From contig DXCU01000091.1 of NCBI GenBank assembly GCA_019115845.1, positions 1-64,000 on the forward strand: a stretch of 64,000 nt of DNA. The letters run 5' to 3'. The stretch comes from Candidatus Rubneribacter avistercoris (GTDB lineage: Bacteria > Actinomycetota > Coriobacteriia > Coriobacteriales > Eggerthellaceae). The notes under the pieces were generated by a model. It was not told the origin of the DNA and ran no database searches. It saw only the letters and a program-made list of their open reading frames with translations. Of the stretch, positions 3,657-42,893 are shown piece after piece; within the stretch, counting starts at the first letter, position 1; each line of letters begins with the position of its first letter. The position numbers and the translations under genes are program-made.

Positions 3657-3980
3657 ATGATCGTCACCACCACGAACTCCGTCGACGGCTACCGCGTGTC
3701 CGGCTACTACGGCATCGTGTTCGGCGAGGTGATCACCGGCATCAACTTCCTGCGCGACCTCGGCGCGGGTATCCGCAACTTCGTCGGAGGCCGCAGCGAG
3801 GGCTACGAGCAGGAGCTTTTGCAGGCGCGCACCGAGGCGCTGCAGGAGCTTGAGCAGCGTGCGGCGTCGATGGGCGCGCATGCCGTCATCGGCGTCGACC
3901 TTGATTACGAGGTGCTCGGCCAGGGCAACATGCTCATGGTCACCGCCTCCGGCACCGCCGTCACGCTCGAACAGGCGTAA
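3657..3980 (+). CDS. YbjQ/UPF0145 family (heavy-metal-binding domain) protein
   Basis: [51 protein letters not shown]...; AGGAG upstream of ATG 3657. Confidence 0.88.
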
Positions 3981-4028
3981 GGGGGCTTTCCGCAGGGTCG
4001 CGGGCGGCCCTTTCCGCTTTGGGCCGGC

Positions 4029-4997
4029 TCAGCGTTCAAGGTAGGCGCTAAGGGCCGGCCAGGCGCGGGCGGCTTCGGCGTATCCCTGCTCGTACAGGGC
4101 GAAGAGCTTCTCCGGGTCCTTCTCCATGCTGGCCACGGTCACGGGCTTGGGCGGGCGGATGACGAAGGCCCTGCCCGCATCGTGCAGGCGCGGGAGCATG
4201 CGGTAGACGCGGTTGTACTCGTAGTGGCGGTGTTGGAGGCGCTCCAGGTAGTGCGGGTAGGCGGCGTAGCGCTGGCGCATCAGCGCCATCAGCTTGTCGG
4301 GCCCTTTCTTGTAATCGGATGCCTGGGTGAGCACCACGATGTGCTTTTCGGCGCCGGTGAGCAGGGAGTAGAGGATGGGCACGCTGTCGCAGGTTCCGCC
4401 GTCCAGAAGGCTCTTGCCGTCCGCCTCCACGATCTGGCTGACAAGCGGCATGGACGACGACGCGATGAGGTAGGGCAGGTCGGCGCGCGCGTCGGAAAAC
4501 TCGTGGTAGTCGGCCTCGCCGGTCTCGAGGTTGCTGGCCACGGTGACCAGGCGCATGGGGGAGGCGTCGAACGCGGCGTAGTTGAACGGCTCCAGGCGGT
4601 TCGGTATCTCGTCGAAGGCGAACTCGCGTCCGCAGGCGTTGCCGGTGCGCACGAAGCTTTTGAGCGACAGGTAGCGCCAGTCCGCGCAGTACTTCGTGTT
4701 GAGGTAGCAGCTGCGCCCGTCCTCGCCGGCCACGTAGTTGTAGCCGCAGAGCGCCCCCGCGCTCACGCCGACGACGCGTTCGCAGAACAGTCCCCGGTCG
4801 GAAAAGAAGTCGAGCACGCCGGCCGTGAACTGCCCGCGCATGGCCCCGCCCTCCAGAACCAGGTTGGCGGCCGTGACGGCGTGCCCGCGCCAGGCGGGTT
4901 CGTGGAGAGGGGTCCCGGGCGCCGCCGGGTTTTCGCCGTCGGGCGCGGCGCCGTGCGGGCCGCCGTCCGCGCGGCGCGCGAGGGGTTCTTGGCTCAT
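4029..4997 (-). CDS. Patatin-like phospholipase family protein
   Basis: LVLEGGAMRGQFTAGVLDF, GVSAG nucleophile elbow, LLDGG Asp motif. Confidence 0.85.
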   Translation of the reverse strand: MSQEPLARRADGGPHGAAPDGENPAAPGTPLHEPAWRGHAVTAANLVLEGGAMRGQFTAGVLDFFSDRGLFCERVVGVSAGALCGYNYVAGEDGRSCYLNTKYCADWRYLSLKSFVRTGNACGREFAFDEIPNRLEPFNYAAFDASPMRLVTVASNLETGEADYHEFSDARADLPYLIASSSMPLVSQIVEADGKSLLDGGTCDSVPILYSLLTGAEKHIVVLTQASDYKKGPDKLMALMRQRYAAYPHYLERLQHRHYEYNRVYRMLPRLHDAGRAFVIRPPKPVTVASMEKDPEKLFALYEQGYAEAARAWPALSAYLER

Positions 4998-37743: not shown

Positions 37744-38576
37744 AGGTGATTCTCGCCCGGCACGCGGGCGCCTGCTACGGCGTGCAGCGCGCTCTCGACA
37801 TGGCCCTTGCGGCCGCCTCCGCGGGAGACGGCGCGTCAACGCTTGGGCCCCTCATCCACAATCCCCAGGTGGTGGCCGACCTTGAGCGGCGCGGCGTGCG
37901 CGCCGTCGGCGGCGTGGAGGATGCGGGGGACAATCCGGTGATCATCCGCAGCCACGGCGTGACGCCGGCGGTGCGCCGTGCGGTGGAGGAGCGCGGGCTG
38001 CCGCTCATCGACGCCACCTGTCCGCATGTGGCGCGCGCGCAGAAGGCCGCTGCGGAGCTGGCGCGGCGCTGCGGGCGCGTGGTGGTGGTGGGCGAGGCGG
38101 GGCACCCCGAGGTGGAGGGCCTCGTCGCGCATGCGCGCGAGGCGGGCGGCGAGGTGTGCGTGGCGGCCTTGCCAAACGACCTTCCCGCGCATCTGGATTC
38201 CCCAACGGGCGTTGTCGTGCAAACCACCCAGACGCGCGAGGCGCTCGACGCCGTGACGGCGGCGCTTTCCGCGCGCGGCGTGGCATGCGAGGTGAAGGAC
38301 ACCGTGTGCTTCGCCACCCGCCAGCGCCAGGAGGCCGCCGCCGAGCTTGCGGGAAAGGTGGATGCCATCGTGGTCATCGGCGGGCGCAACTCCTCCAACA
38401 CCACGCGCCTGGCCGACATCTGCGCCGCCGCCTGTCCGCGCACCCACCATGTGGAGGCGCCCGACGAGGTGGATCCCGCCTGGTTTGCGGGCTGCTCGAC
38501 GGTGGGCGTGACCGCCGGCGCCTCAACTCCGGAGTCGCAGATAGCCGCCGTGGTGGAGCGCCTGGAGGCGCTGTGA
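37740..38576 (+). CDS. ispH: 4-hydroxy-3-methylbut-2-enyl diphosphate reductase
   Basis: ARHAGACYGVQRALDMAL, IIRSHGV, IDATCPHV, VVIGGRNSSNTTRLADIC, VGVTAGASTPES. Confidence 0.95.
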   Translation: MKVILARHAGACYGVQRALDMALAAASAGDGASTLGPLIHNPQVVADLERRGVRAVGGVEDAGDNPVIIRSHGVTPAVRRAVEERGLPLIDATCPHVARAQKAAAELARRCGRVVVVGEAGHPEVEGLVAHAREAGGEVCVAALPNDLPAHLDSPTGVVVQTTQTREALDAVTAALSARGVACEVKDTVCFATRQRQEAAAELAGKVDAIVVIGGRNSSNTTRLADICAAACPRTHHVEAPDEVDPAWFAGCSTVGVTAGASTPESQIAAVVERLEAL

Positions 38577-39970
38577 GCGCCCTCGGAGCGCCGAAGCTCG
38601 CGAAGGCTTCCCGCTTGGGGCTCGCCTGCCTGGCGGGTTACTACTCCTACGCCTACATCTTCTTCAACCGCCTGTTCTTCGTCCCCGGTGAAGGCTTTCA
38701 CTTCCATCCCGTGTTCGTGCAGGCGGCCATGATGCTGTGCGCGGCCGCCGCGCTTGCACGCATGCTCGCCACAGGGCGCTTCGGGTTGCGTCCCGACGGG
38801 CGCGCCTGCCTGGCCATCTGGCTGCTTTTCGCCGCCGGTGTGGCTCTTGACCAGGCGGGCTTGCTGCTGGGAGGCCCGCCGCGCCTGGCCGCCCAGTTCC
38901 TTGCATGTCTGCTGTTCGGGGGAGGGTTCGTTTCGTACACGCTGCTGTGGGCGCGGGTATACGAGGCGCTGTCGTTCCCGCAGCTGTCCGCAGCCGTCTC
39001 TTGCGCCCTGGTCGTCAGCGTGCTCGTGCGCGCGGCGACGTACGTGGACATGCGGGCGCAGGCGGCGTGGTGCGCGGCGTTCTGCGTCGTGATGGCGCTC
39101 TCGCTCGTCATGCTGAACCGCTCGTTTCGCCTTGTGGGAGACGGCGCGTCCGGCGCGCAGGGCCCTTCCGGGCGCCAGCGGCTTTCCAAAAGCCTGCTCC
39201 TCACGTTGAAAGGGCCCCTTGCCGCCACGGCCGCCGTCGCGTTCGGCACGGGGCTTTCCTGGGGCGAGGCCGCGGTCGACGCGTACCGCCCGCTCATCTC
39301 GGTGGCGGCGGCCCTGCTGGTCTGCGCCCTGAGCGTGTTTTTTGGGTTTCGCGCCCGCAGCGGTTCCAAGGGCCGGTTCGCCTTCTTCGGGGCGGTGTTT
39401 CCCCTCTCGACCATCCTCTTGCTCGCCTCGCTCGTGCTGGGGCAGCTCGGCGGGGCCGCAAGCCTGTCCGTTCTTCTTGACGCCGCGTACTACGTGGGGT
39501 TGTCGTTGCTCGAGGTCTATGTGCTCGTGGCCATCGTCGTGGCCTCGCGGGGAAGCGGCGTGTCGCCTTTGGCGCCTCTTGCCGCGAAGATGGTCGTGTA
39601 CGGCGCGGGGTTTTTGACGGGCAAGGCGCTGGCCTCGGTGCTTGATTCGCAGGCCCTGCCCACCGTTTTGACGATAGCGCTTTTGGCGTACCTCGCCTTC
39701 AACGTGGTGGTGCTGGCCGTGAACCAGGTGTCCGACGCGACGGGGTCCTCCGCGCCCGTGCAGGAGGCCATCAGCGCCCGGATGGGCGAGCGTTACGGGC
39801 TTACCCCGCGCGAGCGGGAGGTGCTCTCCTGCCTTTTGGAGGGCAGGTCCTACGAGGGGGTGGGCAGGACGCTGTTCATCTCGTCGAGCACTGTGAAAAC
39901 CCACGTCAAGCACATCTACGAGAAAGTGGGCGTCAAAAGCCGCGACGAGCTGATCGACCGGGCGTTCTGA
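38573..39970 (+). CDS. LuxR-family regulator with an N-terminal multi-pass membrane domain
   Basis: GTG start overlapping the ispH stop (GTGA) with GGAGG upstream; C-terminal LTPREREVLSCLLEGRSYEGVGRTLFISSSTVKTHVKHIYEKVGVKSRDEL. Confidence 0.87.
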   Translation: MSALGAPKLAKASRLGLACLAGYYSYAYIFFNRLFFVPGEGFHFHPVFVQAAMMLCAAAALARMLATGRFGLRPDGRACLAIWLLFAAGVALDQAGLLLGGPPRLAAQFLACLLFGGGFVSYTLLWARVYEALSFPQLSAAVSCALVVSVLVRAATYVDMRAQAAWCAAFCVVMALSLVMLNRSFRLVGDGASGAQGPSGRQRLSKSLLLTLKGPLAATAAVAFGTGLSWGEAAVDAYRPLISVAAALLVCALSVFFGFRARSGSKGRFAFFGAVFPLSTILLLASLVLGQLGGAASLSVLLDAAYYVGLSLLEVYVLVAIVVASRGSGVSPLAPLAAKMVVYGAGFLTGKALASVLDSQALPTVLTIALLAYLAFNVVVLAVNQVSDATGSSAPVQEAISARMGERYGLTPREREVLSCLLEGRSYEGVGRTLFISSSTVKTHVKHIYEKVGVKSRDELIDRAF

Positions 39971-40017: not shown

Positions 40018-40051
40018 GCATCGAGGGTCCTCCGAAAAGGGCCCTCGATGC
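40018..40051. terminator. Strong hairpin between the convergent LuxR and flavin reductase genes
   Basis: GCATCGAGGGTCC-TCCGAAAA-GGGCCCTCGATGC. Confidence 0.65.
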
Positions 40052-40115: not shown

Positions 40116-42370
40116 CTAGATGGCGCGCGCCGCCTGGTTGCCGGAGCTTACGGCTTCGGCGATGGTGGAGAACACGGCGCGTCGCCGATGAGGTGCTTCT
40201 CGATCCCGGAGGGGATGGCGTCGAACAGCTCGGTGTTGGGCTCCATGGCCTGGCAGTTCACCACGGCGTCGCACGGCACGGTGACGGTGGTGCCGAAGTT
40301 GGTGTCGATGCGCACGCCGTCCTCCTCGATAGCGAGAGGAGATGCCTCGTAGAACACGCGCAGGCCCTTGCTCTCCATCCACGCCTTCATGCTGTAGCGC
40401 ACCCACGAGGGATGCTCGACGTCGAAGAACTCTTGTGCGCGGTCGGACAGGATGGTCACGGCCTTGCCCTGCTTGATGAGCGATATGGCCAGGTCGATAG
40501 CGTGGTGGTTGTCGCCGACCACCACCACGCGCTCGCCGAGGTCGCCGCCTGCGGCCGCCTCTTCGATGGTCTTCACCAAAGGCGATCCCTCGGCGCCGGG
40601 GATGTCGAGGGCGGGGCGCACGCCGCCGGTGGCCACCAGCACGACGTCCGGCGCCTCCTTAGCCACCAGGTCGGCGTCCACCTTGGTGCCGGTCACCACC
40701 GAGACGCCCTTCACCTCCTGCTGGCGTTCGAGGTACGCGCAGAAATCCGCGATCTTCTCATGCGGTCCCTTCACCGTGGAGGCGAAGGTCATAAGCCCGC
40801 TCAAGGAGCCGTCCTCCTCGTAGAGCGTCACCTCGTGCCCGCGCTCGGCGGCGATGCGCGCGGCCTCCATGCCGGCAGGACCGCCGCCCACCACCATGAC
40901 GTTGCGGGGCGACGCGGCCGGCTTAGGCTTCGCGCTCGTCTCGATGCCGCCGTCCTTCACGCGGCCGAACGTCGCGTTGCAGCGGCATCCCACCGTCACC
41001 GGGTGGGGGAGCACCGCCTGCAAGCAGGTGAGGCAGTGGTTGCAGGGCGCCACCTCGTCGCGGCGTCCCTCCTGCAGCTTGTTGGGCAGCTCGGGGTCGC
41101 ACATGAGCGGACGGGTCATGGCCACGTAGTCGATCTTTCCGTCGGCGAGCGCGTTGTCTATCAGGTCGGGGGCCAGGCGCGGGTCCATGACGCCGACGGT
41201 GCCCACGGGAATGCCCACCGCCTGCTTGATCTCGGCGGCCACCTCCAGCAGCGCGCACGCTCCGTCGTACTGACCGTTGACCTTGCCCTCGAAATGCCGG
41301 TCGAAGTCAACGCGCGTTCCGTAGCCGGTGTTGCCGCTCTCCACGGCGTGCAGCACGTCGGTGAAGAACGAGGCGGCGTGGTAGCCGTAGGCGCCGTAGC
41401 GCACCTGGAGCATGTCGGCGCCGGCCGCCTCGAACAACCGCGCGAACTCCTTGGCCTCCTCGACGGTCATGCAGCCGTCGTTCTTGCCCAGGTACTCCAC
41501 GTTGTCCTCCACGCCGTTGTAGAGCACCTCGATGATGAAGTCGGGGCCGCAGGTCTGCCTGATCTGCCCGATCAGCTCGGTGAGGATGCGCGCGCGGTTC
41601 TCGTAGCTTTGCGGGCCGTACTCGTCGTCGCGCTGCGTGTTCCAAAAGCGCGAGAGGAACGTGGAGAAGGTGTGGTCGCATCCGGCGTTGATGGTGACGC
41701 CGTCGAAGCCCGCCTTCTGCATCATCTGGCAGCGATGCACGAGGTCGGCCTGGAAGGCGTGGATCTCGTCGACGGAGAGCATCTTGCGGGTGGCGACGTA
41801 GTTCTCGAAGGGCGCTGTGATGGCTCCGTCGCAGGAGCATTGCGACCACAATCCCCACACCTGCATGCCGATGAGCGCGCCCTGCTCATGGACGTAGTCG
41901 GTGAACTGCTTGCACAGCGCCGCGTCCTCGTCGGTGGCGATGGGCGTGTTGCCGTTGGCGGCCTTGCCGGTGAAGTCGACGAACTGGTCCATCCAGATCA
42001 GGCCCACGCCGCCTTCGGCCATGGCGCCGTAAAAGTTCTTGACGTCCTCGGAGAATCCGGCGCCTTGGGACACCGTGCGCGAGGTGGCGCCCGACTTCAC
42101 GATGCGGTTCTTCAGGGTGTGCGACCCCACCTGCAAAGGGCTGAACAGGTGGGAGTAGTCGGTGGTGAACGTGGTGTAGGACTCGTCTTGCGGGTTAAGC
42201 TCGTAGCCGGCCTGCTCCTTCACAGGAGCGTTCCTGTCGGCGCCGTCTTCGCGGGCGTCGGTGTTGGCGGTTGGCGCGCAGCCTCCGAGGCCGGCTGCGG
42301 CCAGCGACCCGACCGCCGCCGTCGCGCCCAGTCCGAAAAACGACCTTCTCGTCAACGATGCCTTCTTCAT
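40116..42370 (-). CDS. Tat-signal OYE-type NADH:flavin oxidoreductase with C-terminal FAD/NAD-binding domain; reading frame apparently broken near 40172-40184
   Basis: MKKASLTRRSFFGLGATAAVGSLAAAGLGGCAP; LFSPLQVGSHTLKNRIVKS; CNHCLTCLQAVLPHPVTVGCRCN; VVGGGPAGMEAARIAAERGHEVTLYE. Continuous ORF ends at 40148; restoring +1 nt continues to VFSTIAEAVSSGNQAARAI* at 40116. Confidence 0.85.
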
Positions 42371-42451
42371 GCTTCCTCCTCCTTCAGTAGGCTTTTCCGG
42401 CCGCGTGGGCCGTTTGCGCCTGCCATGGTAGGGAGGGCGGGTGCGGGAGGG

Positions 42452-42469
42452 ATCGCCCATATGGACGAT
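42452..42469. promoter_or_regulatory. 18-bp near-perfect palindrome (lux-box-like) upstream of the Tat flavin reductase
   Basis: ATCGCCCATATGGACGAT; reverse complement ATCGTCCATATGGGCGAT (8 of 9 pairs match). Confidence 0.6.
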
Positions 42470-42893
42470 TTCGCATCGACGATACGGGTGATGCACGGAT
42501 GATCAGGTGGTTTGTGGCTTTGGTAAGCTTGTCTGCGGACCGAGGAGCGACGTTGAGGGCCTGCCGAAGGGCTTCAAGGAGCCCCGAAGGGTCGGGTTGA
42601 AGGACTTGAAGGGTTTTGCCTGGAAACGAAAGGTTGTTGGTCGTCTGGAGGGCGCGAACGGGGGACTGCTACGCGTGGATACCGCGCTGTAGGGGGAGGG
42701 GCGCTCGTTGTCTGCCGCCGCCCGCAGCTCGCCGTCGCCTGCGGCCTCGCCGGGACGCGGCGTTGCGACGCGGCGGCGCGTGTGCGAGAATGGGCCGCAT
42801 GCGAATCAAACCGAACATCCAGGCCGGACGGCGGCCCGAAGCCCGGCTCGCCCGCCGTATCCGTCCGCAGGCCGTAGGAGCCCTGATCCGTCC

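Follow-up and report, generated by a model that had tools for sequence, protein, structure and literature searches.

A candidate two-dyad operator before a Tat-signal flavin reductase gene and its putative membrane-spanning LuxR-type regulator

Does the 18-bp palindrome in front of an exported flavin reductase gene act as a binding site, and if so, for which protein? The palindrome, ATCGCCCATATGGACGAT at 42452–42469 of the 64,000-nucleotide stretch of DNA analysed here (the window), is present as described in an initial annotation, with eight of nine pairs matching; as a minus-strand feature it is referred to below as the proximal dyad, ATCGTCCATATGGGCGAT. Its symmetry as such is uninformative. 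The window contains 24 palindromes of 18 bp with 8/9 pairs, where a Markov model predicts 22.6 on average (range 15–40), and since a count at chance level proves nothing, palindromicity alone was dropped as evidence for an operator. What makes the site credible is its conservation in relatives. We propose, with a probability of roughly 0.7, that the palindrome belongs to an operator of two dyads, of which it is the promoter-proximal one, and that this operator serves the membrane-spanning LuxR-type protein encoded next to the reductase; the protein would act as an activator and respond to a substrate-type ligand. Conservation, promoter geometry, co-inheritance and a conserved recognition helix are the observations behind this proposal.

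The reductase gene and its promoter

The reductase (740 aa; 40148–42370, minus strand) is a FadH/OYE-like flavin enzyme carrying a Tat signal and the Pfam domains Oxidored_FMN and Pyr_redox_2. The minus-strand ATG at 42370, previously taken as its start, is supported by the Shine-Dalgarno sequence GGAGGAGG (42375–42382, minus strand) and by the Tat motif SLTRRSFFG at the N terminus. Judging from this signal, the enzyme may have a respiratory role. At the opposite end of the gene, positions 40178–40181 hold one base fewer than the orthologue of Gordonibacter sp. An230; the resulting frame shift replaces the last ~20 residues, so that the conserved An230 C terminus VFSTIAEAVSSGNQAARAI gives way to PCSPPSPKP in the window. 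This could be a sequencing or draft-assembly error or recent decay.

Upstream of the start codon, the minus-strand hexamer TACCAT lies at 42425–42430, exactly where a possible −10 element had been placed. It is a weak match to TATAAT and reads TATCGT in both An230 and Raoultibacter timonensis. As also stated earlier, there is no good −35: neither an acceptable −35 element nor a consensus sigma-70 promoter was found. The end of the proximal dyad is separated from the hexamer by exactly 21 nt in all three species. Provided that the hexamer is the −10, this spacing puts the dyad centre at about −42, overlapping the absent −35, and so agrees with the position near −42 that the initial annotation had derived, if the predicted −10 is right. 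With respect to a class II activator promoter, the locus thus offers a 21-nt spacing kept in three species and no consensus −35, together with a −10 predicted from sequence.

Architecture and conservation of the element

The earlier description of a single palindrome holds for the presence of the site, but it overlooked a second dyad, ATCACCCGTATCGTCGAT at 42475–42492 (minus strand), and the unit therefore comprises two dyads or four half-sites. The distal dyad is less symmetric than the proximal one, and its centre lies 23 bp further upstream, at about −65 to −67 provided that the hexamer is the −10. Both dyads fall inside a 46-bp conserved promoter block (42449–42494, minus strand). Read on the reductase strand, the half-sites of the window are ATCACCC (forward), ATCGACG (reverse), ATCGTCC (forward) and ATCGCCC (reverse), which all fit ATC[AG]NC[CG] and alternate in orientation. 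Neighbouring half-sites are ~11–14 bp apart, roughly one helical turn, which would allow all of them to lie on one face of the helix. Each 18-bp arm is moreover an inverted copy of the other, at 14/18 positions in Gordonibacter (shuffle p 0.01) and 16/18 in R. timonensis (p 0.003), and together the arms form an inverted repeat of 41–43 bp. Symmetry within each arm is weak in R. timonensis, with 4/9 pairs per dyad. As arm-to-arm symmetry exceeds within-arm symmetry in this species, the reported palindrome represents one half of the conserved unit.

Conservation upstream of orthologous reductases had been set beforehand as the test that could refute the site. The site passed: An230, whose reductase is 88% identical, retains all 18 bases, and R. 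timonensis (67%) retains the architecture, in a comparison of three genomes only, two of them congeners. Window and An230 share the block GCATCACCCGTATCGTCGATGC-N3-ATCGTCCATATGGGCGATCCC, in which 43 of 46 bases are identical, including every base of the palindrome and all 18 of the distal dyad. Identity between the two is 47% in the 100 bp preceding the block, 65% from the block to the start codon and 68% at four-fold codon sites; relative to the 68% rate the block has a binomial P of 3e-5, and relative to the 47% rate one of 2e-11. At the corresponding place R. timonensis has ATCACCCGAATCGACGAT-N7-ATCGACGATTCGGCTGAT, where ATCACCCGAATCGACGAT is the counterpart of the distal dyad, and thus retains the two-part element. 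All six dyad copies from the three species match ATCNNC(N6)GNNGAT, and the proximal dyad is the best dyad in the conserved columns of the reductase promoter (shuffle p = 0.008). As far as can be judged from sequence, the conserved block is very probably the docking site of the neighbouring LuxR.

Looking for the 18-mer in the same genome and in relatives had been suggested as a check. All 18 bases stand before the An230 reductase. In the window's own genome, none of the matches checked is intergenic: there is no second exact copy, and the six near-matches checked (2–3 mismatches) are all in coding sequence. Family-wide matches with at most two mismatches were discarded, those checked in the own genome being coding and the group in genome G089 belonging to a dispersed repeat.

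The neighbouring regulator and alternative explanations

As previously noted, a LuxR gene lies just beyond the reductase; it occupies 38573–39970 on the opposite (plus) strand and is convergent with it. The encoded regulator is a membrane-spanning protein of 465 aa with a C-terminal GerE domain (PF00196, E = 8e-16). Pfam returned only GerE and a weak Sigma70_r4 match below the cut-off, and no autoinducer-binding domain. A crude hydropathy count gave about 9 segments, where the family criterion is 10–12 N-terminal transmembrane helices. Compared with the window protein, the two orthologues have DNA-binding domains of 95% and 70% identity, and the recognition helix LFISSSTVKTHVKHIY is the same in all three species; over its full length, the R. 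timonensis LuxR is only ~39% identical to that of the window. Its start codon and the stop codon of an ispH-like gene overlap (GTGA, 38573–38576); the latter gene closes an aroA-cmk-plsC-ispH-like run, and the sensor may thus be expressed together with housekeeping genes. A strong hairpin at 40018–40051, between the convergent LuxR and reductase genes, is likely to be their shared transcription stop.

Among 140 Eggerthellaceae genomes, a reductase orthologue (at least 67% identity) is confined to those of the window, An230 and R. timonensis (G000, G002 and G090), other relatives being at most 48% identical. The same three hold the LuxR orthologue (E ≤ 1e-40), and only they contain the tandem pattern outside coding sequence, with one copy of the paired element per genome. 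Element, reductase orthologue and LuxR orthologue are all missing from the congeners G001, a Gordonibacter, and G089, which belongs to the genus of G090; the reductase relatives at 43–48% identity lack the paired element. Tandem-pattern matches at two further loci (L120 and L124) were rejected for overlapping coding frames, and a related set in G012, G059 and G060, which translates as ITVRGD...GD, was judged to be coding by inspection only. In the window, An230 and R. timonensis alike, the LuxR gene adjoins the reductase gene and converges on it. The genes flanking the pair differ in R. timonensis; given this constant order in changed surroundings, reductase, operator and LuxR resemble a cassette.

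In the mechanism that we envisage, dimers of the C-terminal GerE domain would sit on the operator with centres near −42 and −65 and bring RNA polymerase to a promoter with a −10-like element and without a −35. The membrane domain would sense a small molecule, probably the substrate of the reductase, and the Tat-exported enzyme would be switched on. By analogy with related regulators, binding by LuxR, activation as the direction of control and this type of ligand are the most likely assignments. More tentatively, and in our view somewhat short of even odds, two membrane-tethered LuxR dimers may recognise the four half-sites simultaneously, with reductase, operator and regulator travelling as a cassette. 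If true, the large membrane-LuxR family of Coriobacteriia would gain its first defined DNA target, judging by the literature searched, and the candidate operator would be a template for decoding the targets of other membrane LuxRs.

The block might also be a genuine operator owned by a different DNA-binding protein, be it another of the ~80 LuxR-type proteins or a global regulator, and merely lie near this LuxR by coincidence. The genome does provide 84 GerE matches, and most of its other LuxR–enzyme pairs are divergent, which makes the convergent LuxR here unusual. However, the LuxR gene is inherited along with reductase and operator in all three genomes, always in convergent order, and an element found once per genome is not the site of a global regulator; we consider another owner unlikely. 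Less likely still is a function in RNA, with the block forming a hairpin in the 5′ untranslated region of the transcript, either as an attenuator or as a leader switch. The blocks fold stably (−17 to −22 kcal/mol, z −2.6 to −4.5), in RNA the only mismatched pair of the palindrome turns into G-U, and the two arms make up the 41–43 bp inverted repeat. Yet folding as RNA is a property of any DNA dyad, R. timonensis has not kept the proximal hairpin, and the Rfam search gave no family at its cut-off. In addition, the conserved −10-like hexamer follows the block at fixed spacing, so that the transcription start would fall after it.

Two other explanations carry little weight. That the palindrome is a chance match or a remnant of a dispersed REP or MITE-like repeat draws on the frequency of 8/9 palindromes and on a near-identical perfect palindrome, ATCGTCCATATGGACGAT, in copies of an intergenic repeat in G089; it is very improbable in view of the 46-bp block, which keeps a fixed distance from the −10-like hexamer before orthologues, and of the lack of intergenic copies among the matches checked in the own genome. 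Finally, no stop interrupts the reading frame ahead of ATG 42370, and the block could be conserved as protein if translation began at GTG 42496. This is hardly credible, because a strong Shine-Dalgarno sequence precedes ATG 42370 and the Tat signal begins there; furthermore, the spacing between block and ATG is unequal in window and An230, by 5 nt, which puts the frame out of register and means that the block is not coding.

The repeat of G089, a Raoultibacter relative, resembles REP or MITE-like elements. It spans ~160 bp with two hairpin palindromes, CCAGAAATCGTCCATATGGACGATTTCTGG, 123–124 bp apart, and was found at three loci (L145 ~4001–4141, L146 ~3877–4018 and L147 ~4001–4142).

Returning to the neighbouring LuxR as the reader of the two-dyad operator, a paralogous pair offers suggestive sequence support for this link. 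The closest paralogous reductase in the window's genome is 45% identical, and the closest paralogous DNA-binding domain (67%) belongs to the LuxR beside it. The promoter of that reductase contains ATCAACCCTTTGGGCGAT, which fits the core, an event of ~1% by chance according to the core-match rate; its spacing to a −10 differs from that of the window element. Across 40 divergent LuxR–enzyme promoters of the own genome, ATCNNCC-N4-GGNNGAT at 8/10 occurred in 20%, against 2% of controls, but the figure was still 13% after these regions had been shuffled, and the motif was rejected as a shared one. These promoters showed no dyad excess, their k-mer signals were mostly Shine-Dalgarno sequences, and the other LuxR–enzyme promoters had no significant motif in common. 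Footprinting of promoters between the window's genome and An230 detected a significant conserved dyad in 3/22 divergent LuxR–enzyme promoters and in 1/8 controls, and generalization to other LuxR promoters is thus not established.

Individual promoters nevertheless hold features of their own. In the own genome, three divergent LuxR–enzyme regions (L086, L104 and L070) contain dyads conserved with An230, namely AACACCCATCATGGGTGTT, ACGCATGATGCGT and TCGCCCGATTCGGGCGA, which are candidate operators of other membrane LuxRs. Two reductase promoters (L014 and L016) have ATCACC half-sites in direct repeat 21 bp apart, upstream of TATCGT and next to a LuxR gene, and upstream of two orthologous reductases (L011 and L018) TTCACCAATCCGGTGTGA is present in two copies ~70 bp apart.

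LuxR-type DNA-binding domains number 84 and 124 in the two Gordonibacter genomes examined, and many of them adjoin exported redox enzymes without an assigned substrate. Regulators of this kind in the related E. lenta turn on enzymes for dietary and host compounds, and the description of them by Dong et al. (2022) defines no DNA targets. With a regulator assigned to it, the compact, conserved candidate operator is a direct entry point, and a reporter built on it could be used to screen for the substrate of the reductase.

Relation to known enzymes and regulators

The reductase has the Oxidored_FMN plus Pyr_redox_2 layout of BaiCD, the long form of bilirubin reductase and 2,4-dienoyl-CoA reductase. 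Unlike the FadH/OYE flavoenzymes compared, it bears a Tat signal. It scores under each of the named NCBIfam cut-offs listed, and falls far below the equivalog cut-offs of BaiCD (240 versus 825 bits), bilirubin reductase (270 versus 750) and mycofactocin OYE (286 versus 793).

The lux box of LuxR–AHL systems is a dyad of ~18–20 bp centred near −42 and overlapping the −35 region. The proximal dyad has a similar length and the same position over the −35 region, and had accordingly been called lux-box-like. Its 18 bp are, however, unlike the 20-bp consensus (compared by eye), the element has two dyads instead of one and the regulator is devoid of an autoinducer-binding domain; for the mismatch in sequence and the missing domain, the name lux box should be abandoned. 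Operators of the NarL/MalT type consist of several ~7-bp half-sites in mixed orientation that are bound by a GerE-type HTH. The window element shares the GerE-type HTH regulator and the short half-sites in mixed orientation, whereas ATC[AG]NC[CG] is neither the NarL heptamer nor the MalT box, and Pfam found no response-regulator or ATPase domain in the LuxR.

The closest parallels are DadR, HcdR and CadR, membrane-spanning LuxRs of E. lenta that activate their cognate enzymes in response to the enzyme substrate, as shown by Dong et al. (2022, PMC9734109), who counted 83 transmembrane LuxRs in one genome, 50 of them near flavin enzymes. The main text of that paper contains no match for palindrome, inverted repeat or binding motif, and a further search of freely accessible main texts retrieved no operator for the membrane-LuxR family. 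While the regulator family is already known (Dong et al. 2022), the candidate operator sequence is put forward here and would be, within the literature searched, an early proposal for the membrane LuxRs of Coriobacteriia. In contrast to DadR, HcdR and CadR, the LuxR of the window is convergent with its enzyme gene, overlaps an ispH-like gene and is known here from sequence alone. Like them, it combines a GerE domain with a multi-span membrane domain, and its gene stands beside that of a redox enzyme in the same bacterial class, the Coriobacteriia.
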